Source: Zwartia hollandica (lineage in GTDB: Bacteria > Pseudomonadota > Gammaproteobacteria > Burkholderiales > Burkholderiaceae_B). From it: a stretch of DNA of 64,000 nt. Positions 11,427 through 40,690 of the stretch are shown here, in pieces (the first letter of the stretch is position 1; each line of letters begins with the position of its first letter). The stretch spans positions 434,001 through 498,000 of the forward strand of contig NZ_JAHXRI010000007.1 in the NCBI RefSeq assembly GCF_019923725.1, read 5' to 3'. The translations under genes and the position numbers were made by a program. Below the pieces are notes generated by a model that saw only the letters and a list, made by a program, of their open reading frames with translations, was not told where the DNA came from and ran no database searches.

Positions 11427-11463
11427 AAAAATTCCAAAATTAATGACAACGGACTTACTGCGG

Positions 11464-12291: not shown

Positions 12292-12316
12292 ATCTACTTA
12301 GACTATATATTTTTTA

Positions 12317-15300
12317 TTAATTAAGCTTTGACACTAATTCAAACAAATACTCTTCGCACACTTTGCCTAGTTTCTTCGGACTTAATTGCTGTCTGATAGA
12401 CTTCTTCGCCACTGCAACATACTGTCGACGAAAGTCACTATTTAACATTTGCCGCATCATGTCAGACGCCGCCTCGATATTCGGATCTCCCCATATAGTG
12501 CCTGGAGGGTAAGGTCCGAACGCTCTATCAGTCTGAACGATTGGGGTTTCAATTAAGAAACTGTTCTGACTACTCATAAAATCAAGATTGCCAGAATAGT
12601 TACTTGCAATGACAGAAACGCCCAACGCCATTGCCTCAGCCAAGGTTAAGCCAAACCCCTCGGACCGGTGCAGAGAGACGTAAACATCCAGTGACTTAAT
12701 AAAATTGAATGTCTCGGCTCTATCAAAATCTCCATATACAAATATTACGCGCTCATTCTTATTTTCTACCTTAAGCCGCTCAAAGTCATACGAACCGGAT
12801 CCGTAACGACCATGAATTTTTATTACTAAATAGGCATTGTCATCATGCTTGAATGACTTGTTAAAGGCCGAGATCAGGCCTGCTATATTTTTTCTCTCAA
12901 AACCACTCCGAGGGTCACACAAAAACCCGAATAACAGCGCATCTTCTGGAAGCTTAAAATACTGACGATCTCCTTTTGCCGCAAGCATCAACTCCCAATT
13001 GAGTGTGTAAGGTAGAACCTTCACGACCTTCCCGATAGTCGAACCGATAGAGTCCGCAGAGTACTGCGAGGGCGTCCAAATCTGATCAAAGGACTCAACC
13101 GCGCCTAACCATTGTTCTGGGAAGTTTTCAGTTTCCCATACCCAGTAGCCCACACTCCTATTACCGAAGAAATTACTTGGCAAGAAAGTTTTCGATTGAC
13201 TGACCATGTCGGCATTAGCAATCAATATACTTACGTCAGATTGATAGTAGCAATCGCCAAAGTAGTCCTCTCTATATTCACCAAGGTAGGAAGATGAATT
13301 ACTATTTGGAATCGCCAGGGCACGATACGGAGCATGACTGGCCTCCAACGTTGTGCAAATACTCCTAGCGGCCTCACCTACACCGCTAGAGGCACCTAAA
13401 TATCCTGCGATATTTAAGCGTAGATCTTGCTTTTTTGATGCCAAATGATTTTTTACTTGCAGCAAGACTTTGTAGCTATCTTCGATTTCCAAATCTGACA
13501 CTGCACACTTTGAAATGTTTTTCAACGGGTCTTCAACACTGCCAAACCTCTGAATATACTCACCTAAAAAGTCAAAAGAGAATGTCTGCTGATGATCTAG
13601 GTTGAGCAACCATTTGGTTAAATCATTCGCAGATTCCTTTGTTCCGCAAAATCTTCTTCGCGCATCGATATCATAGATAGAAACGACAGGTTTATTTTTA
13701 TCTTGGTGATTATGTTGATATAAAAATTGCATTCGCTCAATAAACTGAGCTTCAGTTGTTGCAAACTCATAAAACAACGATATATCTGTTTCTCGCAAAT
13801 TAAAATCGTGACAGTTGGTTTTACACCAATTTGTAAATGGCACCAAGTCAGAATCGAGCGTTAATACTGGAAACTTCAACTGAAGCTCGCCACTTAAAAA
13901 GTAAACGTTTAATATCGATCCGATTTTAGGGTAAGAGTCTTGCAAGGCCAAAACATGTTCAACGGACAAATCAAGCTCATTCGTTCCATGCGCCAAGATC
14001 CAAATACAAAATTCGTCGAAGACTTTGCGAGATCTCCACATTAAATTGAATGTAGTAAAAATGTCGTTCCGATTTGACGACTGTAATTTGACGAATACGT
14101 CTTCGACATAGTTCAGCGGCTTATTATCTCGAGCCAAATTCAATAGCTCTTCACTTATTTTTAACTCCTTTTTACCGGACTCGTTCAGCCATGCTTCAAA
14201 AACAGTCAACCCATTGGGCCCAGCAAGCTCCTTGAGCTCAGCGGCTACATCTGGCCTCAGCTCTAACACCGCGTTATAAAAAATGGGTAAGTTAGGAAAA
14301 GTTAAGCTTGGATCATAAGAAAACAGAAAGGCACAGAACCTATCTGGCGCACTCAGAGGCAAGGGAATATCTACATTATTGTTATCTGCCCATCTCACTG
14401 CGCGGTTTACGACTGTCAAGGGCATTGACACGCCATTTGGCAGAGTTTCAAACGCATAACTGTAACTTGAAGACTCTAGATAACCTTTTTCTAACAACTG
14501 AGTTGCGTAAAAATTTGTGAGCTCACTCAGTGCTTTGCTGTGTGAACTAATAAATCTATTTTGATGTTTCGAAAGTCTGTGCGGAACTAAGGGATTAAAG
14601 CCAGAGAAATGGAAGAAATATAATTCTTGTTGATCACAGCGCCAAGCTCCTCCTTCCTGCGTGATCGGGCGCTCGTGTAAATTCCAGTATGCCGCGTTGT
14701 AGCCAGGGTCTCGTAAGATGAAGTGGTCTGCAAAATATGAAGGGACCAAATCGATCCACTTTTGATCGACAAAAAGGCCGTTTGATATATCTACAAAACA
14801 GTGTTTGTATAACCTTTCCTTCCACCAGTTTAAAAAATCAGTGGTAACGGCTGAACGCTTTAAGCCAATAAATCCTAAATTGAACGTTCCACTTTGTAAG
14901 ATATTGATTTCCGCTGGAAACTTATCATCGTAGTAGGGCTTTCGCAAATGCGGTGTCAGAACTATAGAGTTATTTTCTAATTGATCATATATTCGTGTTA
15001 AAGGCTTAAAAACATATATATCTGGATCTAAATATACGACTGATTCGTAATTAAATTGTGTAAATAAACTATGAATAACGTATGGCTTAATCGCGGTATT
15101 AAGCTCCATTATTGAATGTCTATAAATGAAAATTTCAATGGTAGGTATGTTGAAATTTTCGAACTCAATTACTTCACTACCATTTTCAAGCAGGCCACCC
15201 ACAATTCCTTCTGCTCTATCTACGAGCACAACTATGAAATCATGATTTGGATGCTGTTTAAGATATGAATCCGATAGAACCTTTGCATAGCTGATGTAGT

Positions 15301-15463
15301 TTTTCGAAACAATTGTCACAGCTACATTATCGCTACGTTTTTTTTGTGCTCTATTTTCTAAACTACGTTCCGTAGTTAAGTTTTTACTTAGGCTGTTTTT
15401 TTTATTTTTAATTTCTTTAGCAATTTGTTTGACATCTTTTCTTTCATTTTTGATGTTTTTCAT
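12317..15463 (-). CDS. two-domain glycosyltransferase (GT8-like plus GT4)
   Basis: A 1048-residue protein. Residues about 45-330 form a GT-A domain (AVTIVSKNYISYAKVLSDSY, then VVYLDPDIYVFKPL with a DxD-type DPD). Residues about 350-680 are a helical linker. From about 690 there is a GT4 domain (LNIAGYLGASSGVGEAARS, then RSEGFGLTLAEAMALG). A fused pair could add two successive sugars. The Lys-rich N-terminal 40 residues look unstructured. It is the first gene of a leftward unit, 161 bp downstream of rmlC. Confidence 0.8.
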   Translation of the reverse strand: MKNIKNERKDVKQIAKEIKNKKNSLSKNLTTERSLENRAQKKRSDNVAVTIVSKNYISYAKVLSDSYLKQHPNHDFIVVLVDRAEGIVGGLLENGSEVIEFENFNIPTIEIFIYRHSIMELNTAIKPYVIHSLFTQFNYESVVYLDPDIYVFKPLTRIYDQLENNSIVLTPHLRKPYYDDKFPAEINILQSGTFNLGFIGLKRSAVTTDFLNWWKERLYKHCFVDISNGLFVDQKWIDLVPSYFADHFILRDPGYNAAYWNLHERPITQEGGAWRCDQQELYFFHFSGFNPLVPHRLSKHQNRFISSHSKALSELTNFYATQLLEKGYLESSSYSYAFETLPNGVSMPLTVVNRAVRWADNNNVDIPLPLSAPDRFCAFLFSYDPSLTFPNLPIFYNAVLELRPDVAAELKELAGPNGLTVFEAWLNESGKKELKISEELLNLARDNKPLNYVEDVFVKLQSSNRNDIFTTFNLMWRSRKVFDEFCIWILAHGTNELDLSVEHVLALQDSYPKIGSILNVYFLSGELQLKFPVLTLDSDLVPFTNWCKTNCHDFNLRETDISLFYEFATTEAQFIERMQFLYQHNHQDKNKPVVSIYDIDARRRFCGTKESANDLTKWLLNLDHQQTFSFDFLGEYIQRFGSVEDPLKNISKCAVSDLEIEDSYKVLLQVKNHLASKKQDLRLNIAGYLGASSGVGEAARSICTTLEASHAPYRALAIPNSNSSSYLGEYREDYFGDCYYQSDVSILIANADMVSQSKTFLPSNFFGNRSVGYWVWETENFPEQWLGAVESFDQIWTPSQYSADSIGSTIGKVVKVLPYTLNWELMLAAKGDRQYFKLPEDALLFGFLCDPRSGFERKNIAGLISAFNKSFKHDDNAYLVIKIHGRYGSGSYDFERLKVENKNERVIFVYGDFDRAETFNFIKSLDVYVSLHRSEGFGLTLAEAMALGVSVIASNYSGNLDFMSSQNSFLIETPIVQTDRAFGPYPPGTIWGDPNIEAASDMMRQMLNSDFRRQYVAVAKKSIRQQLSPKKLGKVCEEYLFELVSKLN

Positions 15464-15624
15464 AATGTCCTGAGAAGGGTATTTTTCTCTACTTTATAGA
15501 CGAGCAGAATTCAGTGTTATGAATGCGTATATTGCAGAAGCTTTTCACTAACGGCTGGGGACGCAGAAAAAAACAACTCATACCGATGCTATCGACATCA
15601 CTCTGACTTGCATTTATACAACCC

Positions 15625-16176
15625 CTAATCAAAACACTCCGCCTCCGTCAGTTTTACACCCGCTTGATCTTTTGCAGACAACACCGGCGCGACCGTTAAC
15701 TTAGGCCAATCAATAGCGATCTGCGGATCGTTCCATGCGATGCATCGCTCGGCCTGGGGGGCGTAATAATCAGTCGTCTTGTATAAAAACTGGGCACGAT
15801 CCGTGAGCGTTAAAAACCCGTGTGCAAAGCCCTGAGGGATCCACAACTGCTGTTGATTCTCTGCAGACAAGATCGCAGAGGTCCACTGACCAAAGTTGGG
15901 AGAAGATCGGCGAAGATCTACCACGACGTCAAACACGGTACCCTCGACTACTCGCACCAGCTTCCCTTGCGCATGGGGTGCCAGTTGATAATGCAAGCCT
16001 CGCAGCGTACCCATCACCGAACTTGAGTGGTTATCTTGCACAAAGGTCATAGGGCTACCCGTTCGCTCACCGAACAACTTTGCATTAAAGCTCTCGTAAA
16101 AATATCCGCGTTCATCACCAAACACTTTAGGGGTGATAAGCATGACATCTGGAATAGATAGTCGCTGAACGTTCAT
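15625..16176 (-). CDS. rmlC: dTDP-4-dehydrorhamnose 3,5-epimerase
   Basis: A 183-residue cupin of normal RmlC length. Family motifs are present: DERGYFYESFN, QDNHSSS, TLRGLHYQ, VFDVVVDLRRSS and PQGFAHGFLTL. The active-site His of GLHYQ and the Tyr/Asp pairs are intact. It makes dTDP-4-keto-L-rhamnose from dTDP-4-keto-6-deoxy-glucose. Its start overlaps the rmlA stop (TAATG). rmlB and rmlD are not in the window. Confidence 0.93.
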   Translation of the reverse strand: MNVQRLSIPDVMLITPKVFGDERGYFYESFNAKLFGERTGSPMTFVQDNHSSSVMGTLRGLHYQLAPHAQGKLVRVVEGTVFDVVVDLRRSSPNFGQWTSAILSAENQQQLWIPQGFAHGFLTLTDRAQFLYKTTDYYAPQAERCIAWNDPQIAIDWPKLTVAPVLSAKDQAGVKLTEAECFD

Positions 16177-17060
16177 TAACGCCCCTCATGCTTTAGAAGA
16201 TTCAACAAATACTCGCCATAGCCAGTCTTGGCTAGTGGCGTTGCTAGGGCCTTGAGCTGGTGGGCATCAATCCACCCACTTCGATACGCGATTTCTTCAG
16301 GACAGGAAATCTTTAAGCCCTGACGCTTCTCGATCGTCGCGATGTATTGACCTGCCTCAAGCAAGGATTCATGGGTACCCGTATCTAGCCAGGCATAACC
16401 ACGCCCCATGATCTCAACACTTAACGCATCGAGTTCAAGGTACTTACGATTCAAGTCAGTAATTTCTAGCTCACCTCTCGGCGAAGGTGTCAGGCCTTTT
16501 GCAAGCTCTACCACTCTCTCGTCATAGAAATAGAGTCCAGTGACCGCATAGTTCGACTTTGGATTAACTGGCTTTTCTTCTAGTGACAAGACCTTACCCG
16601 CACCGTCAAACTCTGCGACCCCATACCTCTCCGGATCGTGGACATGGTAAGCAAAGACCGTGGCGCCCGTCTGATTGGCGTTTGCGCTAGACAGCAGTTT
16701 CTGAAAATCATGCCCATAGAAAATGTTGTCCCCAAGGACTAAGGCACTTGGAGATCCCGCTAAAAACTTATCACCAAGAATGAAAGCCTGCGCTAACCCG
16801 TCAGGGCTCGGCTGAACAACATAGCTTAGTTTGAGTCCCCAGCGCGATCCGTCGCCCAGCAACTGCTCGAAGCGTTGTGTATCTTGCGGTGTCGAGATAA
16901 TTAGTATTTCGTTAATGCCCGCCAGCATCAACGTGCTAAGCGGGTAATAAATCATCGGCTTATCGAATACTGGCAAGAGTTGCTTTGACACAGCAATCGT
17001 TGCAGGGAACAGCCGTGAGCCTGAACCACCTGCTAGGATAATACCTTTACGCTCTTTCAT
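16176..17060 (-). CDS. rmlA: glucose-1-phosphate thymidylyltransferase
   Basis: A 294-residue nucleotidyltransferase with [16 protein letters not shown] at the N-terminus, [25 protein letters not shown] and [20 protein letters not shown]. These are classic RmlA motifs with the catalytic residues in place. It makes dTDP-glucose, the first step to dTDP-L-rhamnose. It is coupled to rmlC by a one-base overlap, and the upstream glycosyltransferase ends 26 bp away. Confidence 0.95.
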
Positions 17061-20460: not shown

Positions 20461-20574
20461 ATTTTTTTAAATATCGTCCCAGAAGGTAATTAGAATCATA
20501 CCGCCCTACCCCATCTTGTTACTTTGCCCAGAAAAGTGCATTATTCGTCACAGTCTGGAAACTTAAAATTTGAA

Positions 20575-22104
20575 ATGAGCTTTCTCGTCGTTTTAGGCAT
20601 GCACCGATGCGGTACGTCTGCATTAACAGGCACCTTAAATCTGCTGGGATTTTCCGCAGGAAGCCAATTAACGCCGCCAGATACATTCAATGCGCGCGGC
20701 TATTTTGAAGATATTCCTCTTAATAGAGAACTAGATCATTTCTTGTCAGCAATAAATCGTTCATGGAACGATGAACGCCCCTACCCAAACGACTGGTTAT
20801 CTAGTGATGCGGCTTTAGCTACGGCGAAAAAACTGGAAGCTCTGTTCCGAGACGATTTCGATTTTAGCCAACGCACTGTTTTAAAAAACCCTAGGTTTTC
20901 TCGTCTACTCCCGTTGTTACAACCAATCTGGCTAGGGACGGGGCTAACTCCCAAGTATGTACTGAGCTTGCGCTCCCCATTGGCAGTCATTCAATCACTC
21001 GCTCGCCGCGATTCTATTTTGCCGCAACGTGCTGCTCTTTTGTATGTAGCACACATGTTGGAGGCAGAATTGAATACGCGAAACCAACCACGCGCATTTG
21101 TTGAATACGATGCTTTGCTGCACGACTGGAGAAAAGTCGTCGAGCAAATTGGTTCGAAGTTAACCGCTGACGTTCTCTCCTCATGGCAGAGCGACTCTGT
21201 GCGCTCGGCAACCATTGATGCGTTTTTAACCACAGAGCTGAATCATTTTTCCGACGAGCAGCCCAGACCCTCTGGCCCAGCTATTGATTTAGCACTGGAA
21301 GTCTATGATTTATTGCGTGCACCGCAAGATGATTCCACCTTATCTGCTTTAGATGCAGTGCGGCTGCGCTGGTGTAATTATTTAAGCTCGCTCGAGCCCT
21401 GGTTAAGCGAAACCGTGAGGATGGAGCAGATCACCAATAATTTAACTAGTGCCTATATCACTCCATCAAAAGAACTTGTACTACTGCACAGTTTGAACGC
21501 CATATCTGAGATGTTCTGGGCCTGCGATGGGGAGGAGTTTACACAGGCTCGCAAAGTGTTGGCTGGTTGGTCGTTTAGCCAAAGAAATTGCCAACGCTTT
21601 ATTATCCCCACCCTTACACAACCCCTCAGAGCACTTAGGTGGGACATCACAGATAGACCAGCGTTTTGTATCATCAAAAAAATATGGCTTGAGGACATAT
21701 TGGGTGAGGTCCACTGGGTTGCTGAACTAAACACCTCCCTTTTTACTCAAAACGGTGCAGAGTCCAACGTTGTTGCCGAGAAAGACAACGGCTACCTACA
21801 AATATTGGCGCTAGGTTTTGACCCAAGCTGCGTATTGAGCATCCCTGAGGCCGTATTAAGTCGAATCCAGCCAGGTTGGGCTATGTGCACCGATTGGGAA
21901 GCCAAACTACCAGTCGAGGGCTTACCCACCGTCATGAAACAATTTGGTATTGCGCAGAGGCAACTCACACAAATGAAAGCAGCGCTAGACCAGCTTTATG
22001 TCAGTTTCGAGCAACGCCTAGAAGATCCGGTTCTTGCTGAGAGTCAACTAGCTCTCTTGAAGGGTCTGCTGCTTACCGATAAAGAGATAGATGGAAAGGT
22101 TTAG
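20575..22104 (+). CDS. sulfotransferase-like protein
   Basis: From the ATG at 20575 the protein is about 509 residues and starts FLVVLGMHRCGTSAL, the 5'-phosphosulfate-binding loop of PAPS-dependent sulfotransferases. The 3'-phosphate region is LSLRSPLAVIQSLARR. The following about 250 residues are unassigned. An upstream TTG in the same frame gives a 17-residue extension and is less likely. It probably transfers sulfate to the polysaccharide using PAPS made by the nearby cysD/cysNC products. It is followed after 36 bp by the DUF218 gene and the MurC-NRPS gene, probably one operon. Confidence 0.7.
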   Translation: MSFLVVLGMHRCGTSALTGTLNLLGFSAGSQLTPPDTFNARGYFEDIPLNRELDHFLSAINRSWNDERPYPNDWLSSDAALATAKKLEALFRDDFDFSQRTVLKNPRFSRLLPLLQPIWLGTGLTPKYVLSLRSPLAVIQSLARRDSILPQRAALLYVAHMLEAELNTRNQPRAFVEYDALLHDWRKVVEQIGSKLTADVLSSWQSDSVRSATIDAFLTTELNHFSDEQPRPSGPAIDLALEVYDLLRAPQDDSTLSALDAVRLRWCNYLSSLEPWLSETVRMEQITNNLTSAYITPSKELVLLHSLNAISEMFWACDGEEFTQARKVLAGWSFSQRNCQRFIIPTLTQPLRALRWDITDRPAFCIIKKIWLEDILGEVHWVAELNTSLFTQNGAESNVVAEKDNGYLQILALGFDPSCVLSIPEAVLSRIQPGWAMCTDWEAKLPVEGLPTVMKQFGIAQRQLTQMKAALDQLYVSFEQRLEDPVLAESQLALLKGLLLTDKEIDGKV

Positions 22105-22140: not shown

Positions 22141-22704
22141 ATGCAGGCTGACAACTCTCGCGATGCAATTACACAATTCGTATTTGTCAGTCATCAACCT
22201 GCGAAGGTAGACATTGCACTTGTACTAGGATCGCCTTCGATCAGCAATATACTGCCCGCGATATCGCTTTATTTACAAGGCAACACAAACCGCATCGTCA
22301 TTAGTGGCCACGGACCCGACGATCAACATACCCCAGAATGGAGTGTTTACAATGACTATGCGCTCGCAGCGGGGGTGCCTGCTTCGGCAATTTATCTTGA
22401 GCCTAGTGCTCGAAACACATTAGAAAATTTTGTTTTCTCTTCACAACTAATTGAACAATTGATTGGATGGCATTCAGTTAAGTCAGTTGCAATATGTTGT
22501 AAGCCGCTACATAGTCGCCGCGCACTCATGACGGCGCGGCAACATTTACCTAGGCATGTGAATCTACTGATGACCCCACCCAAACACCCAGATGATATTC
22601 AAGCGGATGACTGGTGGAGCACTGCGCATGGTCGAGATCGGGTCATGGGGGAAGTGACCCGTATCGGAGAGTATGCGCAGAAAGGTGATCTTTCGCTTGA
22701 TTAA
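22141..22704 (+). CDS. YdcF/SanA-like DUF218 protein
   Basis: A 187-residue protein with DIALVLGSP, RIVISGHGPDD and EPSARNTLENFVFS, the pattern of the DUF218 family (YdcF, SanA, ElyC), whose members act in envelope metabolism. No signal peptide or membrane helix is visible, so this copy is probably cytoplasmic. It is preceded by an AAGGTG site. Its end overlaps the MurC-NRPS gene by 32 bases, so the two are translationally linked and probably work together. Confidence 0.78.
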   Translation: MQADNSRDAITQFVFVSHQPAKVDIALVLGSPSISNILPAISLYLQGNTNRIVISGHGPDDQHTPEWSVYNDYALAAGVPASAIYLEPSARNTLENFVFSSQLIEQLIGWHSVKSVAICCKPLHSRRALMTARQHLPRHVNLLMTPPKHPDDIQADDWWSTAHGRDRVMGEVTRIGEYAQKGDLSLD

Positions 22705-25700
22705 GATACCCCCGCCATTTAACCAAGTACATATGGTCGGTGTTGCTGGATCAGGGATGAGTGCACTCGCTAGATTATTTGTCGAAATGGGTGTTAGTGT
22801 CTCAGGAAGTGATCATGCCGGTTTAGAACGCTTGCAAGAGCTACGTCATATCGGCGTCAAAGTCCATGATAGACACTCCCCGGACAACGTTGGAAGCCCA
22901 GACCTCGTCGTATTTAGTCCTGCTGTAGCCAGAGACAATATTGAGCTTTGCTATGCTCGCGAGCGCGGAATTCAATTGCGCTCACGCGGGAGTGCACTTG
23001 CCAATCTACTAAAGGCTCGCGATTATGTGAGCGTTGCTGGCAGTCATGGCAAAACTACTACCTCTGCAATGCTGGCAAGTATTTTTGATCGCGCAGGCCT
23101 GTCGCCAGGCTTTATGCTCGGTGCCCCAATACCAAATTTAGAGAATAGAAATGCCCAATGGAAGGATGGGGCGATTTTTGTTGCTGAAACCTGCGAGGCA
23201 TTTCGTGCACTTGATTACTTTTCTCCAACACACTGCATTGTTACTAACATCGATGATGAGCATAGTGATCATTATGGCGGACACGAGCGTCTAGAACATG
23301 CCTATGCGGATTTTATTGATCGCGTATCCAAAAAGGGCTGTGTAGTGCTGTACGGCGAAGATATTCGACTCATCAATATATCGAAAAAGATTGCGCAACC
23401 TGCGATCACATATGGATTCAATAAAAATTCAACATGGCATGCTGACGACCTAACACTAGAGCACGATTCCTCAATATTTAGGGCTGTTCATCAAAATGGC
23501 TACTCCGTTTCTTTGCGGTTAAGAGTCCCCGGCAAACACAATGTTATGAATGCACTTGGTGCACTCGCTATGGCCCACGCGCACGAGGTCCCGCTTGAAG
23601 TTATTGCCAGTGCTTTGGAATGCTACCAATCCGCAGAGCGTCGTTGGCAACGACTTGGCCGTCCAAATGATATTGAAATATTCGATGATTTTGCTCATCA
23701 TCCCACCGAGATCGCTGCGACTTTGGCGACTGCACGGTTAGCCGCAGCCGATACAGCTAGAGTGATTGCGCTGATTGAGCCACTATTACATTCTCGCGTT
23801 AACCGTCTTGCACAAGAATTTGCCACCGCCCTGGCAGGCGCAGATGAATGCATTGTTCTCCCAGTAAATGGTAGCGGTGAGCCTGTCCCTGGCGAATTAT
23901 CAGATTGGCTTTTACATGCAGCATTGAGGCAGCACGGTCGCTCTTTCCGTGTTTGTAGCGATGTGGATCAGGCAGCACTGATTCTGGCCTCCGTTGCGCG
24001 AAAGGGCGATGTTGTGGTGACAATGGGCGCAGACAAAGCCAGTCTGTGCGCGCGCGCGGCATTAATGGCCTTAGTTAAACCTAATAACGAGGACTCCATA
24101 CAAGTTCTTGAGCCAAAAGAATCGATCAAGCTTGACGGTCCGGCGCATGAGCAAGAGCGACTGCAGTCGAGATTTGAGCAGATGGTGTTACGTCATCCCA
24201 ATGCCACCTGTGTGCTCGATGGCGATCGGGAGTGGACTTATCACGAAATTTCAATGATGGCCGATCACGTGGCTGTCCAGTTATGCAATCGTGGTCTAGC
24301 TCCAGAAGATCTTGTGGTTCTAAGGCTTAAAAAATCTGCATATTTGATTGCTTTGATTTTGGGAGTGCTAAAAGCAGGTTGTGCATTCATACCGATTGAT
24401 CCCTACTTGGAAAGAGCAGGTATTCGCAATTCTCTTTTACGCGTCAGAGTCAAAATTGTTGTGACCGATGAAAATGCGTGGAACGCGTCGGGTTTAGGCA
24501 TCCCCTGCATAAACGCTAACAATTTTTTCGATTCAACTCCTAGCACTGCGGTGGTGCAATGCCTGGCTTCGAGCAGTAATCTTGCCTATGCGATTTTCAC
24601 TTCGGGCTCAACTGGGGAGCCAAAACTGGTTGGTGTCGAGCATCGAAATGTTGTGAATGTTATTGAGCATGCAGTTCAAGAACTCACAGAGCCGTCAGAT
24701 CTTGAATTTGTGCCGTTTATCGACTCTATCGGTTTCGATGCAAGTATCCACCAAATATTTGCCACGTTTGGCCATGGTGGGACCCTTCTTATCACACAAG
24801 ACTTGCAGAGTCTTGTGCGATCACCCCACTTTGCAAGAGTGACTGCGCTTGGCGGAACCCCGTCCGTTATATCTCGCTTGGCTGAGTCTACAAACCTACC
24901 TGAAACACTCAGGATCATCATGCTCGGCGGCGAAGTGGTACCTAATGCACTTATTGAACGTTTACGCCAAGTCACTCATTTGCGACAGGTATTAAACCTT
25001 TATGGGCCGACTGAGACAACAATTTACTCCACAGTTGCTATGATTTTTGACGCGGCGCTTGTGAGGACCGGAGAAAGCGATCTGTTGCAAGGGCGGTATA
25101 TTGGAAATCCCATTCGTAACACGCGTGTCTCGATCATCAACGAACTGGGTGGCACAGTTGAAGACAGTGTCGAAGGTGAAATAACGATCTTTGGAGACGG
25201 CGTATGCAGAGGCTATCTTGACGATCCGACGCTAACACGTAAGCGGTTTGGAGAAGAAGCTCTTACCGAGTCGTTAACTGTACGTTTCTATCGTACCGGA
25301 GATCTCGGTAGGAGACTCCCAGATGGAACGTTACAGTTCATTGGACGTAAGGATGACCAATTAAAGATACACGGAGTGCGATTCGAACCTATCGAGGTGG
25401 AGAACGCCCTTGAGACATTTCCGGGCATCGAGCGCGCTGCGGTTGTTATCTCAGCATCCGATGACTTGAGGCCACAACTCGTTGCCTATGTGACTGCAAA
25501 AAGCAACTTGGACCTAGCGTTGGTTCGAGATTGGCTTAAGTCTAAATTACCTAAGCCTCTCATACCAGGCCTTATTTTGCGGGCTGAAGACCTGCCCCTC
25601 TCCGTTCATGGCAAGCTTGATCGCAGCAGGATTGCGGAAATAGTCCCCCTCGCGGATATGCTGCGTCCCAATGCTCCACCGCGGGATCAGATTGAGCGAG

Positions 25701-26551
25701 ATCTGATGGTTATTTGGCAAAAAAATCTAAGACTCGCAGGCCTCGGTGTTGACGAGGACTTCTTTAGTGCTGGTGGAGACTCACTGTCTTCCTCTAAGCT
25801 CGTACTCGATGTTGAAGATTTTTTTGATTTAAGAATGCCCGCAGAGGCGTTAGAGAACCTATCAACCGTTGCCGTCATGGCAACATATCTGCGCAAGGCA
25901 TTAATGTTGCCTCTTGGTGGACGAGAGAAAGCCGAGGTGGCATTTGCAAATATCCGAAATTTCATCGCCGCATGGAAAGGTGCACGCCTTAAACCTGACT
26001 CTTTTATTGTGACACTTAATCACTCCAACACACAAAATGGTTTTTTCTGGTGTTGTCAGTCATTCACTGAGTTGCTTTCTCTCGCGCAGGCAATGGGCGA
26101 GTCTCAGGTTATCCACGGCATGCGCTCTGGGCACTTAGCTTTTGAATATGAACCGGAGACAATTGATGCACTTGCAGTTGCTTACGCTCGTGAAATTATG
26201 CTCCTCCAACCCGATGGCGACATCATCATTGGAGGTAATTGTCAGGGGGGGCTGATCGCTCGTGCCACTGCGAATGCTCTAAAAAAACAAGGAAGAATTG
26301 TTGGGAGGCTGATTATGATGGAACAAAGCACTTATTGGCCTTACGACCAGTATGTTGACCTATTGTTTGGTTATGAAAGTACTTTCAACCCAACCCATCG
26401 CGTGAGTCATCCATCAGTTGTCTTAGAAAAGGCCTACCCTGCAGGCTATTCTTTACACTTTATTTCGGGCAGCCATGGGACTTTTTTCAATCCAAATAAT
26501 GTTGATAGCTTGGCCGACAAAATTCGATTGATATTAAAGCAGACTGTCTAG
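22673..26551 (+). CDS. MurC-like ligase fused to NRPS adenylation, carrier and thioesterase domains
   Basis: A 1292-residue single frame with four parts. Residues 18-470 are a complete MurC-type Mur ligase (GVAGSGMSALARL, P-loop VAGSHGKTTTS 121-131, NIDDEHSDHYGG, FDDFAHHPTEIAATL). Residues about 490-990 are an NRPS adenylation domain (TSGSTGEPK 643-651, FDAS 688, NLYGPTE 775, YRTGDLGR 873, HGKLDR with Lys 981). Residues about 1000-1075 are a peptidyl carrier (GGDSLSS, Ser 1037). Residues about 1105-1292 are an alpha/beta thioesterase with GGNCQGG (Cys 1190) and a late His in GSHGT. No condensation domain is present. The ligase half would join an amino acid to a carboxylated (nucleotide) sugar. 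The NRPS half would activate and load an amino acid. How they cooperate is unknown. It overlaps the DUF218 gene and converges on the methyltransferase gene. Confidence 0.88.
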   Translation: MRRKVIFRLIKIPPPFNQVHMVGVAGSGMSALARLFVEMGVSVSGSDHAGLERLQELRHIGVKVHDRHSPDNVGSPDLVVFSPAVARDNIELCYARERGIQLRSRGSALANLLKARDYVSVAGSHGKTTTSAMLASIFDRAGLSPGFMLGAPIPNLENRNAQWKDGAIFVAETCEAFRALDYFSPTHCIVTNIDDEHSDHYGGHERLEHAYADFIDRVSKKGCVVLYGEDIRLINISKKIAQPAITYGFNKNSTWHADDLTLEHDSSIFRAVHQNGYSVSLRLRVPGKHNVMNALGALAMAHAHEVPLEVIASALECYQSAERRWQRLGRPNDIEIFDDFAHHPTEIAATLATARLAAADTARVIALIEPLLHSRVNRLAQEFATALAGADECIVLPVNGSGEPVPGELSDWLLHAALRQHGRSFRVCSDVDQAALILASVARKGDVVVTMGADKASLCARAALMALVKPNNEDSIQVLEPKESIKLDGPAHEQERLQSRFEQMVLRHPNATCVLDGDREWTYHEISMMADHVAVQLCNRGLAPEDLVVLRLKKSAYLIALILGVLKAGCAFIPIDPYLERAGIRNSLLRVRVKIVVTDENAWNASGLGIPCINANNFFDSTPSTAVVQCLASSSNLAYAIFTSGSTGEPKLVGVEHRNVVNVIEHAVQELTEPSDLEFVPFIDSIGFDASIHQIFATFGHGGTLLITQDLQSLVRSPHFARVTALGGTPSVISRLAESTNLPETLRIIMLGGEVVPNALIERLRQVTHLRQVLNLYGPTETTIYSTVAMIFDAALVRTGESDLLQGRYIGNPIRNTRVSIINELGGTVEDSVEGEITIFGDGVCRGYLDDPTLTRKRFGEEALTESLTVRFYRTGDLGRRLPDGTLQFIGRKDDQLKIHGVRFEPIEVENALETFPGIERAAVVISASDDLRPQLVAYVTAKSNLDLALVRDWLKSKLPKPLIPGLILRAEDLPLSVHGKLDRSRIAEIVPLADMLRPNAPPRDQIERDLMVIWQKNLRLAGLGVDEDFFSAGGDSLSSSKLVLDVEDFFDLRMPAEALENLSTVAVMATYLRKALMLPLGGREKAEVAFANIRNFIAAWKGARLKPDSFIVTLNHSNTQNGFFWCCQSFTELLSLAQAMGESQVIHGMRSGHLAFEYEPETIDALAVAYAREIMLLQPDGDIIIGGNCQGGLIARATANALKKQGRIVGRLIMMEQSTYWPYDQYVDLLFGYESTFNPTHRVSHPSVVLEKAYPAGYSLHFISGSHGTFFNPNNVDSLADKIRLILKQTV

Positions 26552-26559: not shown

Positions 26560-27414
26560 TTATTTTGGTCTGAGCAAGCACCGGTTACGCATGCATAATA
26601 GATCGGCGGCGTCGCGCCCGACACTTCGCTGCAGATCCACGACATCAAATCCCGCATCTCTTATTAAATCGATCGTATTCGATAGCGGTTGAAAGAATTC
26701 AAATCTCCCCTCTGGTGGAGTAATAAAAATTAGATGATCCTCCAGATCGCCTTGAAGAGTCGATCCGATTAGATTCAACACCAGCTGTTTCAATTGCGCA
26801 GGAGTATCTGCAAGCTCGGTAAGTCCTGAAGCATTCGGCTTCCAGGTCACGCCAAGGCGATTCACGGCCTCTCGTATAGAAATGCTCGACCGGAGGCAGG
26901 ACGAATCCGTAAAGCTAACCATGGCAATACCATCAGGCTTTAAAACCCGCCGCGCTTCTTTGAGCAGCCGATGTGCAAAAACTGTTGGTGAACAGTTAAG
27001 TATGAAATCTTGAATCACGATGTCTATTGAGCTCGTGTCAGCACAATTGGTCAAGTCACCGGCATCCCCTTGAACAAACTTCATTTCCGGCATGGAGACA
27101 CCTAGGCGCTTGTAAATGCCTGGGATATCCAAGAGATCGATCGCAAGTGTGCTCTTTAGTTTGATACCGAAATTATTTAAAAAATGTTCGAGGGTCAGGC
27201 TGTTGTAAGGAGCCGTATAGCCCTGAAAAAGGCATGAGACATCTTTGGGCAAAGACTCGAATACTGTTGCAATACCCTCGCTTTGTTTGAAGACATCAAT
27301 GCTGTTAGCAAACGTAGGTAATTTAGGAAGATGATGCTCAGATGACGCGACATACCTTGCAACGAAATGATCGTCACTCTTCAATTCAACTGAGGCTAAA
27401 GTCGGGAGATTCAT
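26560..27414 (-). CDS. SAM-dependent methyltransferase (class I, atypical motif I)
   Basis: A 284-residue protein. The middle reads FVQGDAGDLTNCADTSSIDI, then EARRVLKPDGIAMVSF, a typical class I methyltransferase core (acidic loop and post-motif strand). The usual GxGxG of motif I is replaced by TLAIDLLDIPG, so the SAM site may be altered. Its start overlaps the preceding short FAD-type fragment by four bases, and that in turn overlaps cysQ, so the three form one leftward unit. It ends eight bases from the convergent MurC-NRPS stop. Substrate unknown. Confidence 0.66.
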   Translation of the reverse strand: MNLPTLASVELKSDDHFVARYVASSEHHLPKLPTFANSIDVFKQSEGIATVFESLPKDVSCLFQGYTAPYNSLTLEHFLNNFGIKLKSTLAIDLLDIPGIYKRLGVSMPEMKFVQGDAGDLTNCADTSSIDIVIQDFILNCSPTVFAHRLLKEARRVLKPDGIAMVSFTDSSCLRSSISIREAVNRLGVTWKPNASGLTELADTPAQLKQLVLNLIGSTLQGDLEDHLIFITPPEGRFEFFQPLSNTIDLIRDAGFDVVDLQRSVGRDAADLLCMRNRCLLRPK

Positions 27415-28450: not shown

Positions 28451-28536
28451 TTTGTATTATTCATAAAAATAAGTGTTAATATTTATAACATATTAAATAT
28501 AGTTAAATATTTATAAATAAAATGCAAAATGCGACA
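28443..28536. promoter_or_regulatory. long inverted repeat across the cysQ-cysD divergent promoter
   Basis: Perfect 12-bp arms (TGTCGCATTTTG at 28443 and CAAAATGCGACA at 28525) cover the first codons of both divergent genes. They enclose a very AT-rich centre with further near-symmetric bases (TCATAAA / TTTATAAA). It may bind a symmetric regulator, or may come from an inverted duplication of one gene start. Confidence 0.5.
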
Positions 28537-29991
28537 ACCGATCGAAACACACCTCAACCGACTCAGCTCTGGGGGCTAGACTCGCCTGAGGTTTGGGATA
28601 CACAACGAGCGTTTGAACACCTTCAGTCACTTGGCAAAGCAGATACAAAGCGCACCGCAGAACGCCGTCTGACTGAATTACAGCTGTTGCCAACTGAGCT
28701 CAACGAAAACTTAATCGAAGACGAGCTCGGTCGCCCGGCAAACAAAATAGTGCTGCATGCCGCCCTCGCAAAAGCCAGAAGCCAGCGCAAACTCGTACTC
28801 TTTATTCAACTGTTTCCGCTTCCAACGGGCCAGGCATGTTTGCATGCGAACGACGCCAGAAGCGGACGTTACTGGGTCCCGTTGAGTGACACCACGCAAG
28901 ATCTAACGACCAACGCAATACTAGACGGCCTTCGCAAACTACAACAACACCTCGGCAAAGACATTGCCGTCTTCCCGCATGGCAACTTAGCGGGCTTGCT
29001 CAGAGACCAACAATCAATAGAAAATATTAGCCTCTCCCCGTCGAGTTATCTCCCCACACTAAACTTACCCGTAACGAATAAGCAAAGAGGGGAAACCACC
29101 CCACACCTCAGACGGCTTGAAGCGGAAAGTATCCACATTCTTCGCGAGGCTGTCGCAGAGGCTGAAAACCCTGTCATGCTCTATTCAGTGGGCAAAGATA
29201 GCTCTGTGATGCTGCACTTAGCACGCAAGGCTTTTTACCCAGCCCCCCCGCCCTTTCCATTACTTCACGTCGATACACGCTGGAAGTTTCAAGAAATGTA
29301 TCTCTTTCGCGATCACATGGCTAAAGAGAGCGGTATGGATTTACTCGTACACATCAATCCGGATGCGATCGCAAAGGACATTAACCCGTTTGATCATGGC
29401 TCGGCCATGCATACCGATATCACTAAGACCGAGGGCCTCAAGCAAGCTTTGGATCAAAACAAGTTTGATGTCGTTTTTGGGGGTGCACGCCGAGACGAGG
29501 AAAAGTCCCGCGCCAAAGAACGTATATTTTCCTTCCGGAGTCAGACACACCGGTGGGATCCCAAACAACAACGCCCCGAGTTATGGAATCTGTTCAATAC
29601 AAAAAAGAACCCCGGAGAAAGCATCCGAGTCTTTCCGATCTCCAACTGGACGGAGCTCGACATCTGGCAATACATCTACCAAGAACATATTCCAGTCGTG
29701 CCTCTGTACTTCGCTAAAAAGCGCCCTGTCGTTATCCGGGATGGCATGATCTTGATGGTGGATGACAGTCGCTTTCGTCTTCTACCAGACGAAGAGATTC
29801 TTGAAAAAGTCGTTCGCTTCCGAACGCTAGGTTGCTATCCCTTAAGCGGTGCGATCGAATCCACCGCTACCAACCTACCAGAAATCATTCTCGAGATCAT
29901 TAACGCACGCAGCTCTGAGCGCCAAGGCAGAGCTATCGATAGTGACGCATCAGCCAGTATGGAAAAGAAGAAACAAGAGGGGTACTTCTAA
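28522..29991 (+). CDS. cysD: sulfate adenylyltransferase subunit 2 with extra N-terminal domain
   Basis: A 489-residue protein; CysD is normally about 300. The standard CysD part begins near residue 193 ([16 protein letters not shown]) and has the PP-loop [41 protein letters not shown] and the C-terminal [16 protein letters not shown]. The first about 190 residues match nothing I recognise, though they look like a folded domain ([24 protein letters not shown]). The CysD part makes APS from ATP and sulfate together with CysN. It overlaps cysNC by one base. Confidence 0.88.
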
Positions 29992-32702: not shown

Positions 32703-32969
32703 ATGATGAGGAAAGCACGATTTACAGACGAGCAGATAGTTCGCATATTGCAGGAAGCTGATCGAGATCCAATTCCAGCTGTCGCCAAGCGGCATGGCGT
32801 CAGTGAGGCCTCAATTTATGTCTGGAGCAAGCGATTTGGTGATATGCGTACGGACGACGTTAAACGGCTGCGCAACTTGGAGCAGGAGAACAGCCGGCTA
32901 AAGAAGATTTTGGCTGAACGGGATCTGGAGATCGAGGTCATGAAGGAGATCACTGCAAAAAAGTGGTGA
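32703..32969 (+). CDS. IS3-family transposase OrfA
   Basis: An 88-residue helix-turn-helix protein (RKARFTDEQIVRILQEAD, VSEASIYVWSKRFG) with a leucine-zipper tail (LRNLEQENSRLKKIL). It binds the IS ends. A slippery heptamer A AAA AAG lies in the correct phase at 32957-32963 near its end and should allow a -1 frameshift into orfB to make the OrfAB transposase. Confidence 0.92.
   Translation: MMRKARFTDEQIVRILQEADRDPIPAVAKRHGVSEASIYVWSKRFGDMRTDDVKRLRNLEQENSRLKKILAERDLEIEVMKEITAKKW
32957..32963 (+). promoter_or_regulatory. -1 programmed frameshift heptamer
   Basis: A AAA AAG in the zero frame of orfA, immediately before the overlapping orfB frame, is the standard IS3-family slip site. Confidence 0.7.
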
Positions 32970-33817
32970 GCGTGCAGGCTCGATTGGCTCAGGCTCGTTA
33001 TGCCATCGAGCGCGGAGTCAGCCAAAGACGGGCCTGTGCGCTGCTTCAAGTTGCAAGATCTGGTTTGACCTATGCGTGCAAGATGCCGATCAAGGATGCA
33101 CCGATTGTTCAGGCCATGCGTCACTATTCTGGCAAGTACCCTCGGTTTGGGGCTAGACGGGTGAGAATCTTTTTACGGCGTGATGGCATAGCGCTCGGAC
33201 GAGATCGTACTGCTAGGATTTGGGCAAAGCACGGGCTTCAGGTGCCAGCAAAGAAGCCAAAGAAGCGTTATCGCCCTGAACGTACGCAAATCGGCGCATC
33301 TAGCCGACCGAATGAAGTGTGGAGCTATGACTTTGTCTTTGATGCTTGTGCAAACGGGCAGAAATTGAAATGTCTGACGATGATCGACGAGTTTACGAAG
33401 GAAAGTTTATTCATTGATGTTGCAGGTTCGATCCGAGGTAAAAGGGTTGTCGAGGTACTGCAGGCTGTTGCAGCAGAACGCGGATATCCGACCTATCTAC
33501 GAAGCGATAATGGCCCGGAGTTTGTGAGTACGGTGCTGCTGGAGTGGGCCAGTACAAATGGCATGACGAATATGCTGATTGAGCCAGGCAAGCCTTGGCA
33601 AAATGGTACGAACGAAAGTTTTAACGGCAAGTTTAGAGACGAATGTTTAGCAATGAACTGGTTTCATAGCCGAAAGCATGCGAAGGTTTTAATCGAGCAG
33701 TGGCGGGAACATTACAATACGATCAGACCGCATTCAAGTTTGGATTATCAAACGCCGCTTGAATATGTGTCTGGATGGAACAGCAGTTCAACAACCGGAG
33801 CCTTCGTTTCTAAATGA
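32963..33817 (+). CDS. IS3-family transposase OrfB (DDE integrase)
   Basis: A 284-residue rve-type integrase in the -1 frame relative to orfA. It has VWSYDFVFDA (first Asp), LRSDNGPEFVS (second Asp) and NESFNGKFRDE (Glu), with the C-terminal RPHSSLDYQTPLEY box. All catalytic residues are present. It probably acts as the OrfAB fusion made by frameshifting; the GTG at 32963 is only the first codon of the open frame. The order of motifs fits the IS407 group. Confidence 0.93.
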   Translation: MVSVQARLAQARYAIERGVSQRRACALLQVARSGLTYACKMPIKDAPIVQAMRHYSGKYPRFGARRVRIFLRRDGIALGRDRTARIWAKHGLQVPAKKPKKRYRPERTQIGASSRPNEVWSYDFVFDACANGQKLKCLTMIDEFTKESLFIDVAGSIRGKRVVEVLQAVAAERGYPTYLRSDNGPEFVSTVLLEWASTNGMTNMLIEPGKPWQNGTNESFNGKFRDECLAMNWFHSRKHAKVLIEQWREHYNTIRPHSSLDYQTPLEYVSGWNSSSTTGAFVSK

Positions 33818-33974: not shown

Positions 33975-34904
33975 ATGAGAAAATTATTTTTACATATTGG
34001 TGCAAATAAAACAGGATCGACTGCGCTACAGTTTTTTTTAAACTCAAATTATTTAAAGCTCTTAGAAGAGGGTTTTCTATACCCACGAGTAGGCTGTATT
34101 GGCGATAGCCACCTTGGTATTTCCGCGAAACTTGGATTTACCAGTGACCCAGAATTAAAAACATTGGCGGACATAAATCTTGCAGAGATACACACTCAAT
34201 TTAACAAAGAGGTGAATTTGCACACACCACACACCGTCATTGTAAGTAGTGAATCGTTTGTTTTGCCTGGAGATCCAAAAGCAGTAAAACGTTTTTTTTG
34301 TGATTTTGATGTCAAAATAGTACTGTATTTACGACGCCATGATCATTGGTTGAGATCCTTGTATAACCAGGCAGTAAAGACAAGCTATAACCCAAGTTGG
34401 CCTCGCGGTATTAACGGCTACCTACAATATCTCTCCACGCCTAACATTGCAAAACAAGTAGCATACATAAACTACAGATGGTTAGTATCCCGATGGGCGA
34501 AGGAGTTTGGCGAGAGTAATGTATTTTGTATACCTTATGAACCGAAGTTTCGTGAGAAAAGCTTATTTGAAGACTTTCATGAAATTGCAAAGATACCGCA
34601 ATCAATAGATTTTAGTGCCGCTCATAGATTAAATGAAAGTATTCCTGAAAGAACGCTTTTTGCGATAGATTATATAAACAGAACAAACTTATCAGTGGAC
34701 AGAAAAAAAATGCTACGTTCGTATCTTTTAAGTCAATCAGAAGATAACAAGAATGAAAAGAAATTTGACTTTTCTAACGAGTTGAAAATAAAAATTCTTA
34801 CCGAACACATTGATTCTTATAATTGGATTGCTACCAACTACGGTTTTTTTTGCGGTACCACATTTTTTTCTGAGCCTTGGCCCAAAGTTGATGTTTCTGA
34901 TTGA
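33975..34904 (+). CDS. sulfotransferase-like protein
   Basis: A 309-residue protein starting LFLHIGANKTGSTALQFFL, the PAPS 5'-phosphosulfate loop, with the 3'-phosphate strand YLRRHDHWLRSLYNQA. Size and motifs match bacterial carbohydrate sulfotransferase-like proteins. It is AT-rich like its surroundings and lies between the IS element and an AlgJ-like gene on the same strand, 41 bp apart. It likely uses PAPS from CysD/CysNC; the acceptor is unknown. Confidence 0.74.
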   Translation: MRKLFLHIGANKTGSTALQFFLNSNYLKLLEEGFLYPRVGCIGDSHLGISAKLGFTSDPELKTLADINLAEIHTQFNKEVNLHTPHTVIVSSESFVLPGDPKAVKRFFCDFDVKIVLYLRRHDHWLRSLYNQAVKTSYNPSWPRGINGYLQYLSTPNIAKQVAYINYRWLVSRWAKEFGESNVFCIPYEPKFREKSLFEDFHEIAKIPQSIDFSAAHRLNESIPERTLFAIDYINRTNLSVDRKKMLRSYLLSQSEDNKNEKKFDFSNELKIKILTEHIDSYNWIATNYGFFCGTTFFSEPWPKVDVSD

Positions 34905-34945
34905 TTTTATCCAAATAATCAACATCTAAAAAGACGATTATATCC

Positions 34946-35815
34946 ATGAAAAATTCAATTTCGATCCGAGCGATAACTGGGCGGAATGACTTTTTATTCC
35001 TTGACGGTGACAATAATAATGTGATTAAACAAACCGAAGGTAAGTTGCTGTTTGATCGCCGTCAACTTATAATGTGGATAAGTTTAATCAAGTCGAGGAT
35101 TTTATTATTTAGAGAAATGGGTATCGACTATAGATTTATAGTTCCACCTAATAAAGAATCAATTTATTACGATTTATTGCCAGATAATATTAAATTTTCC
35201 AGTCTAAGGCCGATCACACAAATCTTATCAGAGGTTAAACATTATTCTAAATACATATATTACAATTCAAATCGAGACGATTTCCCACAAGTTGATCCAT
35301 CACATGGTTTTTATCCTAAAGGAGAAACACATTGGAATGACGGGTTTGCGTATGAATATATAAAACGTGCATTGTTGGGCACCGTCTTTAATCCCCTCGC
35401 TCAAACACAGCTTATGCAATATAGTAAGCAGGAGCTTCGGTTTGATCTTGGATCTAAGATTTCCCAGAGTTACACTGAACCGATCTTAGGAATTCGGCCA
35501 AAAGAACCAAAGTCCCGCCTCGTAAAAAAAAATGAATTGCAAAATATGGGATCGATTGAAATCTGGGAGAACTCAAATCGAAGTTTACCGACAGCTGTAG
35601 TGTTCAGAGACTCTTTTTTTACTAATTTAACGAGTCTTTTTGCCGAGAGCTTTTCACGTGTCGTCTATCTATGGCACCCTTGGGTGGACTATGAAGTTAT
35701 AGAGGACGAGAGGCCAGATTTAGTTCTAAACTGCACTGTTGAGCGATTTATGATGAGATTGCCATGTGATTTCACCAGTCAATCATATAGGGATATAGAA
35801 AAAAGCAAAACTTGA
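34946..35815 (+). CDS. AlgJ/AlgX-like SGNH-type O-acetyltransferase
   Basis: A 289-residue protein with NDFLFLDGDNN near the start, YPKGETHWND (equivalent of the DTHWN block) and AVVFRDSFFTNL (GDSL-type Ser block). These are the marks of AlgX/AlgJ SGNH-like polysaccharide acetylases. No export signal is obvious, unlike AlgJ, so a cytoplasmic role or a missed signal is possible. It pairs with the preceding sulfotransferase-like gene. It is expected to acetylate a sugar hydroxyl. Confidence 0.7.
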   Translation: MKNSISIRAITGRNDFLFLDGDNNNVIKQTEGKLLFDRRQLIMWISLIKSRILLFREMGIDYRFIVPPNKESIYYDLLPDNIKFSSLRPITQILSEVKHYSKYIYYNSNRDDFPQVDPSHGFYPKGETHWNDGFAYEYIKRALLGTVFNPLAQTQLMQYSKQELRFDLGSKISQSYTEPILGIRPKEPKSRLVKKNELQNMGSIEIWENSNRSLPTAVVFRDSFFTNLTSLFAESFSRVVYLWHPWVDYEVIEDERPDLVLNCTVERFMMRLPCDFTSQSYRDIEKSKT

Positions 35816-36680
35816 CTGCCCCTAATCTGATAGAAATTTTGGGCCTATTGACCTTCTCCAACTAAAAAGGGGAGAATTACCCGATTACCTGTGCAGCTTC
35901 AAGTATGGCTTACAAACAACCGTCGATAATAACCGTCAGCATTAAATGTATCAGGTAAAAATAGCGGCCTAGGGCATTTAAAACCGAGACTTCTACGAGG
36001 CTTGGTATTTAATGCTCAAGCAACAGTATCTAGTTCAACTTAGTTAAACACGGATAGGCCGATTCCTTTGAGTGAATACTGTCTTAGTAATCCGTTAGTC
36101 ATCTCGTTGATGACTCACTGCCAAGGGCTGTGTTGGTCTGCAACGCACACTCAGACCCGTACGTTCAGAGAACTTCTCATGCAAAGACACCCACGAACTT
36201 AGTCAAGGTCGCAAACAAACTTGTGTGTTCAAGGAGCGTGCCGACCGCGGAAGCGAGTCGACCAGCACCAAAGCGCAGGGATTTTGGAATACACCATACG
36301 CAACGCGCCAGCTCTCAACTCACGGAGCTGGGCCATCGATCCAAGCTTCCAGCCGCTGTCCGAATGGTAGGTCCTTGCTCAAGATTCAATTGAATCAAAG
36401 TTCGCTCTTTACAATTAAAGACTTATATATTTGTTTTTAATCGCAACACAGCACCTCAGCGATAGTGCTGCGCTTCCATTTTTTTGAGCTCGCCCATATC
36501 GCTTACTGCCAGTATTATAAACACTATAACTAGAGCTTCACATAATACGAAGTGCAAGAGTTCCCATGGAGAACTCTTGGCAAAGATACAACTCACATAA
36601 TATTCTTCAAAAAATTAAATACCCGATTTTTGGTATGATCGGAAAATATCAATCTACACTAAGTACTAAACTTGATTTAT
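35816..36680. other. gene-free stretch between convergent genes
   Basis: About 860 bp without a convincing gene. Short frames at 36130-36440 show no family features. A small IS3 orfA-like fragment may lie at 36456-36509 on the minus strand. The rest looks like decayed or transferred sequence. Confidence 0.5.
36456..36509 (-). pseudogene. possible IS3 orfA fragment
   Basis: The minus-strand frame reads AVSDMGELKKMEAQ and then stops, close to the linker of IS3 OrfA proteins. It is very short, so the match could be chance. Confidence 0.3.
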
Positions 36681-39251: not shown

Positions 39252-39312
39252 TTGCTCTCACGGGAGCCCTCTGCTGCAACCTCACTTGGACTGAAAATCG
39301 TAAGACTGGTCA
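39138..39312 (-). mobile_element. left-end remnant of an IS407-like element
   Basis: On the minus strand this begins TGACC at 39312 and shows the block CGATTTTCAGTCCAAG, matching the left terminal repeat of the intact IS at 32637. It continues through the first about 37 codons of orfA before breaking into the glycosyltransferase. It is the 5' stump of an IS. Confidence 0.65.
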
Positions 39313-39517
39313 TAGTAGGAGTTTAGCCAAAACTCAGATAGAAAAGAACCCACCGAATGCCGGTAACTCTCCCCTAGAAGTAGCAGCCTAATTAACAATA
39401 CCTCAAGTTTTTTGGGACAAGGTCAACTTCAACATCAACCAATATACAAAATTATGAATTTCCCAATTTCATTACTGAAGTGATTTATTGCATCTATGTT
39501 CATATTTGAGGCTAATT

Positions 39518-40315: not shown

Positions 40316-40488
40316 TTTTCTATTACCATTTGTTTGAATTTTTTTTATAATTCAGGTTGTGTTGATCGCAACTTCAACTAGCTCGCCCTCGATCAATTTG
40401 CGTTATGTATTTTTGAGGTAAAGCGTGATCATTACAAACCAACAGTCTCGAATGCGCGCCTTACCGCTCTCATTGTTAACAGATTTAC

Positions 40489-40605
40489 CCTCGTATTACC
40501 GGGCCACGTTTCTCAGCTAGTTAATTGCCTGTCTTTCCCGACGCTTCCTTGGCGAAAGCTATTTCAATCCACTGTGAGAGTGTTTTTGATTGTAATGCGC
40601 CAACA
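40489..40605 (-). pseudogene. IS3 orfB C-terminal remnant
   Basis: The minus-strand frame reads AHYNQKHSHSGLK, then stop, LSPRKRRERQAIN, stop, LRNVAR, matching the C-terminus of IS3-group transposases (WYNxxHRHSGLxxVTPxQRH). Several stops show decay. It fills most of the gap between two glycan-modification genes. Confidence 0.6.
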
Positions 40606-40690
40606 AAACTTTCAACCTATCCATAACAATAGCCGACGCTGAGCTATCGGCCAATCGAACAGAAATCTGGTTTGGGGATGTAAAGAAAAC

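Follow-up and report, generated by a model that had tools for sequence, protein, structure and literature searches.

Domain organization of the fused protein

A MurC-type ligase, an adenylation (A) domain, a carrier (T) and a thioesterase (TE) lie in one open frame of the window, the 64,000-nucleotide stretch of Zwartia hollandica DNA analysed here, and the arrangement raises the question of what a Mur ligase does at the head of an NRPS module. The domain that normally forms peptide bonds in an NRPS assembly line is the condensation (C) domain. Comparison of the window protein with Pfam gave seven matches, all above their gathering scores: Mur_ligase (residues 19-115), Mur_ligase_M (121-301) and Mur_ligase_C (323-453) in the Mur part, and AMP-binding (501-849), AMP-binding_C (908-981), PP-binding (1011-1073) and Thioesterase (1160-1219) in the NRPS part. 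No Pfam match to a Condensation domain was found at E <= 0.001, either in the window protein or in protein P0002. In NCBIfam the window protein scored 375.7 bits with TIGR01082 (murC; cut-off 335.1) and 322.6 bits with TIGR01733 (adenylation; cut-off 317.4). It thus contains the adenylation domain and the serine-bearing carrier of an NRPS module and lacks the condensation domain. The domain search bore out the initial annotation, which had read a Mur ligase, an A domain, a carrier with its Ser and a thioesterase, without a condensation domain, from a single frame. The features are listed in Table 1.

Table 1. Coordinates of the Mur-A-T-TE gene, its domains and the two adjacent genes in the window
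Feature	Position	Strand	Basis
DUF218 (YdcF-like) gene, 187 aa	22141..22704	+	PF02698, 71.5 bits (cut-off 27.6)
Mur-A-T-TE protein, 1292 aa	22673..26551	+	Single open frame, zero internal stops
MurC-type ligase domain, aa 18-460	22724..24052	+	TIGR01082, AF2 model, ATP/Mg residues
Adenylation domain, aa 501-981	24173..25615	+	PF00501, PF13193, TIGR01733
Carrier domain, aa 1011-1073, Ser1037	25703..25891	+	PF00550
Thioesterase domain, about aa 1092-1292; Cys1190, Glu1217, His1268	25946..26548	+	PF00975, AF2/PDB match
Methyltransferase gene, convergent neighbour	26560..27414	-	PF08241

An AF2 model of residues 1-476 (pLDDT 87.6), built on an alignment of 11 sequences with the window's own counted, had MurC structures as its best PDB matches, with TM values of 0.88-0.89 to 1p3d. 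The model of residues 1075-1292 (pLDDT 90.6; 12-sequence alignment) matched NRPS and PKS thioesterases best, with 4zxh at the top. The start of the synthetase is ambiguous between ATG 22673, GTG 22685 and TTG 22697, the last of which gives an 8-nt overlap with the stop of the DUF218 gene.

Distribution of Mur-A-T-TE proteins

The initial annotation had proposed a genome-wide search for the same domain order, and the searches reported here yielded a family of at least 17 proteins. When 72,556 plasmid records were searched with the protein as query, the sole record with a match spanning 80% or more of the query was pAMI4 of Paracoccus aminophilus, a complete plasmid record with a 32% identical relative. 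In a genome sample of the phylum, 2 of 397 other genomes carried a relative (56% and 36% identical; limit 1e-105), both outside the class of the window, and at the same limit a sample of the class gave none in 368 other genomes. None was found among 150 other genomes of the family sample, six of them from the same genus, at a limit of 1e-150 that may miss distant members. A scan of one genome per species (84,980 species), with an alignment of four members as query, returned among its best 80 loci 13 that matched into the adenylation domain and 67 that matched the Mur part only. The 13 loci were from an Asaia MAG, Falsiroseomonas, a Rhodobacteraceae MAG, Sinirhodobacter, Pararhodobacter, Rhodobacter capsulatus DSM 1710, Sphingobium, Rhodobacter NTK016B, an Asticcacaulis MAG, Xinfangfangia, a Rhodobacterales MAG, Paenirhodobacter and Falsigemmobacter, which we take from the genus names to be Alphaproteobacteria. 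No relative was confirmed in a genome scan with the single window protein as query, nor in viral contigs searched with two alignments.

The family, whose size is a lower bound, thus comprises the window protein, the Paracoccus protein, the two from the phylum sample and the 13 from the species scan. Full-length relatives in independent genomes were 32-56% identical to the window protein. Contig ends cut two relatives (L025 and L026), and the order Mur-A-T-TE was kept in all 15 members without such a cut; for L023 and L035, the deposited sequence places the beginning of the Mur domain in a different frame. The family splits into two sub-clades, that of the window with five members and a larger one with 12. 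Its scattered presence suggests that the window host gained the gene horizontally.

The initial annotation had named two explanations that would refute its reading, namely that the frame is an assembly artefact joining two genes, or that the MurC part simply replaces a missing housekeeping murC and has an unused NRPS tail. We give these next to no chance. An artefact was ruled out by the 17 members from independent genomes, one of them on a complete plasmid record, with their adenylation, carrier and thioesterase residues kept wherever readable. As for replacement, the window protein does score above the TIGR01082 cut-off, but a separate MurC was present in all eight carrier genomes searched with this model, at 512-555 bits against 284-379 bits for the fused copy. 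Family members other than the window protein scored 275-371 bits, some of them under the cut-off; of the four that were scored in the larger sub-clade, three fell below it. The Paracoccus plasmid gave no TIGR01082 match at a limit of 1e-60.

Residues and phylogeny of the Mur domain

The 17 Mur domains were aligned with 30 MurC sequences fetched by TIGR01082 from the phylum sample. Since 59 of 60 genomes matched and loci were taken for the best 30 only, this reference set leans canonical. Lys127, Glu172, Glu175, His197, Asn293, Arg324 and Asp339 of the ATP and metal sites were kept in 17/17 family members, and Asp47, which contacts the diphosphate, in 16/16 readable ones. With these residues in place the Mur domain looks active on a nucleotide sugar, the kept diphosphate-binding Asp in particular pointing to an acceptor of that kind, and the acceptor sugar may be a uronic acid. 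Of 16 readable members only 4 retained His70, the uracil residue, and UDP-MurNAc itself is therefore doubtful for the larger sub-clade.

In Haemophilus influenzae MurC, the incoming amino acid is assigned to His376, Arg377, Arg380, Tyr346 and His348 (PMC3060825). All five were present in the 30 proteobacterial MurC of our best-scoring set, whereas three of the five were absent from every family member: His376 was replaced by Gln (15) or Leu (2), Arg377 by Leu (16) or Ser (1) and Tyr346 by Phe (15) or Cys (2). Across MurC only the change at His376 is special, because all 27 MurC-like proteins of the scan, sorted by having His376, also lacked Arg377 and had Phe at 346, a Phe imposed by the search pattern. 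Forty Mpl-like references lacked His376 by that very sorting. Arg380 and His348 were kept in 17/17 family members, which leaves room for binding of a free amino acid.

It could be argued from the amino-acid site altered in all members, and from a uracil His missing in 12 of 16 readable ones, that the Mur domain does not ligate and is a platform bringing a nucleotide sugar to the A-T-TE enzyme. This seems very improbable to us when the P-loop Lys, the two Glu and the His of the metal site and the Asn, Arg and Asp of the ATP site are kept without exception.

A FastTree phylogeny of 71 Mur sequences (17 family members, 30 MurC and 24 of 68 other references; midpoint root) recovered the family as a single clade (support 1.0), separate from both MurC and the Mpl-like branch. 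The family shares with MurC the whole three-domain fold, the ATP/Mg residues and, for the window protein, a TIGR01082 score above the cut-off, but it is fused to A-T-TE, forms a separate clade, occurs in addition to a stand-alone MurC and lacks the equivalents of His376, Arg377 and Tyr346. With Mpl it has in common FAHH and a Glu-Pro pair of the C-terminal domain (residues as given in PMC3060825). Mpl attaches a group that exceeds a free amino acid in size, as the family would do under the mechanism proposed below. Membership of Mpl was nevertheless rejected on the score of the window protein with TIGR01081, 168.4 bits against a cut-off of 388.7; the EPRSNT loop is absent and the branch in the tree is a different one.

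Adenylation, carrier and thioesterase domains

The specificity residues of the A domain, at positions set by the GrsA numbering, read DAHGMGLIYK in the window protein, with related codes for the rest of its sub-clade, and DVGS[IV]AA[VI]EK in all 12 members of the larger sub-clade, one of them cut before the last residue. We know of no specificity code that matches DAHGMGLIYK; the code of the larger sub-clade may suit a basic amino acid. The choice of amino acid probably differs between the two sub-clades. The carrier Ser was kept in 16/16 readable members.

The nucleophile of the thioesterase is Cys (GGNCQGG in the window protein) and not Ser in all 15 readable members, and its Glu and His are likewise each kept in 15/15. 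With PF00975 the window thioesterase scored 29.0 bits (cut-off 26.4) and P0002 22.4 bits, below the cut-off. Of the features of a type I NRPS thioesterase, the alpha/beta-hydrolase fold and the Pfam match are present and the Ser nucleophile is absent. Glu1217 aligns with the acid of AB3403 when the alignment is read by eye. A catalytic Cys in place of Ser is also described for the thioesterases of ObiF1, which forms a beta-lactone, and SulM, which forms a beta-lactam (PMC6668435 and PMC11298585). ObiF1 has Gly where the family has its Glu at the AB3403-acid position and carries an Asp on strand 6, and SulM has a Gln-Cys-Asn motif that is absent from the family thioesterase.

A plasmid search with the thioesterase matched 22 records, in five of which the match spanned more than 80% of the query. 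Besides Paracoccus, these include the loci L010 (Methylomagnum) and L011 (Rhodobacter CZR27), which encode C-A-T-TE proteins with a GGNCQG thioesterase, that of L010 having Tyr at the His position. L098 encodes an A-T-TE protein without a C domain that ends in a weaker relative of the Cys thioesterase, and L097 a discrete thioesterase, another weaker relative with the Cys present. By these examples and the Mur family, the Cys thioesterase type occurs in proteins with a C domain, in proteins with a Mur ligase and in the absence of both. The family shares the A-T-TE order with the C-A-T-TE termination modules of L010, L011, EntF and AB3403, and with the first two the GGNCQG thioesterase as well, but it has a Mur ligase where the condensation domain sits. 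In a tree of A-T-TE sequences L010 and L011 paired at a support of 0.36, which does not resolve their position, and replacement of a C domain therefore lacks phylogenetic backing.

Two of these loci have further features. The L010 protein (10564-16620 of the locus, on a Methylomagnum plasmid) is 2018 aa long and carries a sulfotransferase domain and TPR repeats in addition to C-A-T-TE with the Cys thioesterase. On a Phaeobacter plasmid, L097 (8001-15006) combines the discrete Cys thioesterase (GGNCQG) with an AMP-binding protein, a protein that matches P450 weakly, a carrier protein and a carbamoyltransferase.

The DUF218 partner and other neighbouring genes

In the window the DUF218 gene overlaps the start of the synthetase gene, and in 17/17 members a DUF218 gene immediately preceded the synthetase gene on its strand. 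In 16 of them it could be read as its own 187-aa frame with no internal stop, some starts being set by hand, and in the MAG locus L019 DUF218 and synthetase formed one open frame, an in-frame fusion. The gathering score of PF02698 was exceeded by the DUF218 proteins of the window, L014 and L015, to which the others were assigned by tblastn. This strict adjacency and the one fusion support the suggestion of the initial annotation that the overlapping DUF218 protein is a partner of the synthetase. No match of the DUF218 protein to PDB sequences was found at E <= 1. The DUF218 domain is known from ElyC and SanA. PF02698 is common to these, to YdcF and to the partner gene, and the partner differs from them in being tied to a Mur-NRPS protein, with which it is once fused. 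YdcF is reported to bind S-adenosylmethionine (PMC3879167).

Downstream, the two sub-clades differed in gene content. In the sub-clade of the window a methyltransferase gene came next in all four members with downstream sequence (the sequence of L017 ends). In the window, L014 and L018 these genes were homologous and ran convergently to the synthetase gene; that of L019 was on the strand of the synthetase, and its relation to the others was doubtful (pair E 0.010). A GH3 gene resembling that of Paracoccus was found downstream in 7/17 members, all in the sub-clade of 12, of which two others are cut before the GH3 position and three have no GH3 gene. P0004, the sole GH3 protein scanned, matched PF00933, and its best NCBIfam match was the NagZ-type PRK05337, at 152.3 bits under a cut-off of 207.

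The cassette of the window is flanked by capsule, rhamnose, glycosyltransferase and sulfate-activation genes, and the initial annotation had proposed that the protein decorates this polysaccharide by linking one or two amino acids to one of its sugar acids. Glycosyltransferase genes also lie near the C-A-T-TE proteins of L010 and L011, which would fit such a role. However, when family-2 glycosyltransferases (PF00535) were searched in ten other carrier genomes, for seven of which the cassette contig is known, none was found within 80 kb of the cassette on that contig in 7/7, some contigs being shorter; the nearest match was about 84 kb away (G897), and contig G688:C2 is just 68 kb long. Among 71 neighbour ORFs at 11 other loci, some of which are probably not genes, no glycosyltransferase or glycan theme appeared among the 25 of 71 matched Pfam families that were listed. 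Capsule decoration was thus rejected as the general function on the PF00535 result, and we consider the polysaccharide reading improbable.

Other features of the window and its genome were recorded. A 526-aa protein encoded directly upstream of the DUF218 gene (20524-22104) matched neither Pfam nor NCBIfam at E <= 0.001; by eye, its N-terminus resembles the phosphate-binding loop of sulfotransferases. In the sulfate adenylyltransferase small subunit CysD (28522-29991) the match begins at about residue 184, and the extra first 183 residues matched no Pfam family. An integrase-core transposase (32963-33817) stands just ahead of a stretch of low G+C (34001-46000; 0.345-0.379 per 2 kb), the remaining window being mostly at 0.41-0.53. 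A HipA-like gene at 4939-6545 (HipA_C, 5298-6545) overlaps a 120-aa frame, possibly as a pair of toxin-antitoxin type. Furthermore, contigs C5, C6, C12 and C24 of the same genome (3.6-7.4 kb) each hold one long frame with NRPS adenylation or carrier matches; the assembly has probably split a large NRPS cluster into pieces.

Proposed mechanism

Mur ligases turn a carboxylate into an acyl phosphate that is then attacked by an amine, and an amino acid on an NRPS carrier has its amine free and its carboxyl masked. With the domain order Mur-A-T-TE and the altered amino-acid site, it is simplest to suppose that the acceptor of the Mur reaction is the amino acid on the carrier and that the product goes to the Cys thioesterase. 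The reading that we favour, at a little short of an even chance, is that the Mur ligase stands in for the condensation domain in a one-module Mur-A-T-TE synthetase, where other modules have C-A-T-TE. That the family is an assembly-line enzyme of a new class, whose Mur domain makes an amide between the lactyl carboxylate of a sugar nucleotide and a tethered amino acid before a Cys-Glu-His thioesterase acts, we advance more tentatively, as somewhat less than evenly likely.

From the knowledge of each protein family and the kept residues, the A domain would adenylate one alpha-amino acid and load it on the carrier arm, and the Mur domain would use ATP to phosphorylate the carboxylate of a UDP-MurNAc-like lactyl sugar. 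The sugar substrate, like the steps that follow and the role of DUF218, is something we infer rather than observe. The amine of the carrier-bound, not of a free, amino acid would then attack the acyl phosphate and give the amide, which would be the novel step. The sugar-aminoacyl chain would pass to Cys1190 and might be released by water, by transfer to an amine or alcohol or by ring closure, the last being conceivable because the Cys thioesterases of ObiF1 and SulM form beta-lactones and beta-lactams. The DUF218 protein, to judge from its linkage and the one fusion, would act on the substrate or the product of the synthetase, and the methyltransferase of the window sub-clade or the NagZ-like glycosidase of part of the other may tailor the product.

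A different division of labour, in which the Mur domain couples a free amino acid to the carboxylate of the sugar in the manner of MurC and the A-T-TE part adds a second one, with the Cys thioesterase as an aminoacyl transferase, strikes us as unlikely, though less so than the other alternatives. Aminoacyl transfer of this kind has been suggested for A-T-TE proteins of mycosporine pathways, and L098 provides an A-T-TE protein with a similar Cys thioesterase and no C domain. Retention of Arg380 and His348 throughout the family also suits two ligations, whereas the change of the other three amino-acid-site residues in 17/17 members, and a fused order that is the order of a C-A-T-TE module, speak for the Mur domain in place of the condensation domain.

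Novelty and implications

No description of a Mur ligase or MurC fused to NRPS domains was found among the titles and the starts of abstracts listed by searches of open full texts, subscription papers and preprints lying outside this search, and the initial annotation, which knew of no MurC-A-PCP-TE enzyme, is supported within that range. In one apparent hit, PMC8949500, 'MurC' is part of the author name Murcia. Another, PMC2922099, mentions Mur ligases in operons with cyclodipeptide synthases.

A Mur ligase in the slot of the condensation domain would link the chemistry of cell-wall precursors to non-ribosomal synthesis and offer a possible way to place sugar acids on carrier-bound amino acids. 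If the proposal is true, muramyl-aminoacyl products would be made outside cell-wall synthesis, and a DUF218 protein would gain a concrete substrate context. The pairing of DUF218 with the synthetase in 17/17 members, once as a fusion, makes DUF218 function testable on a defined substrate.
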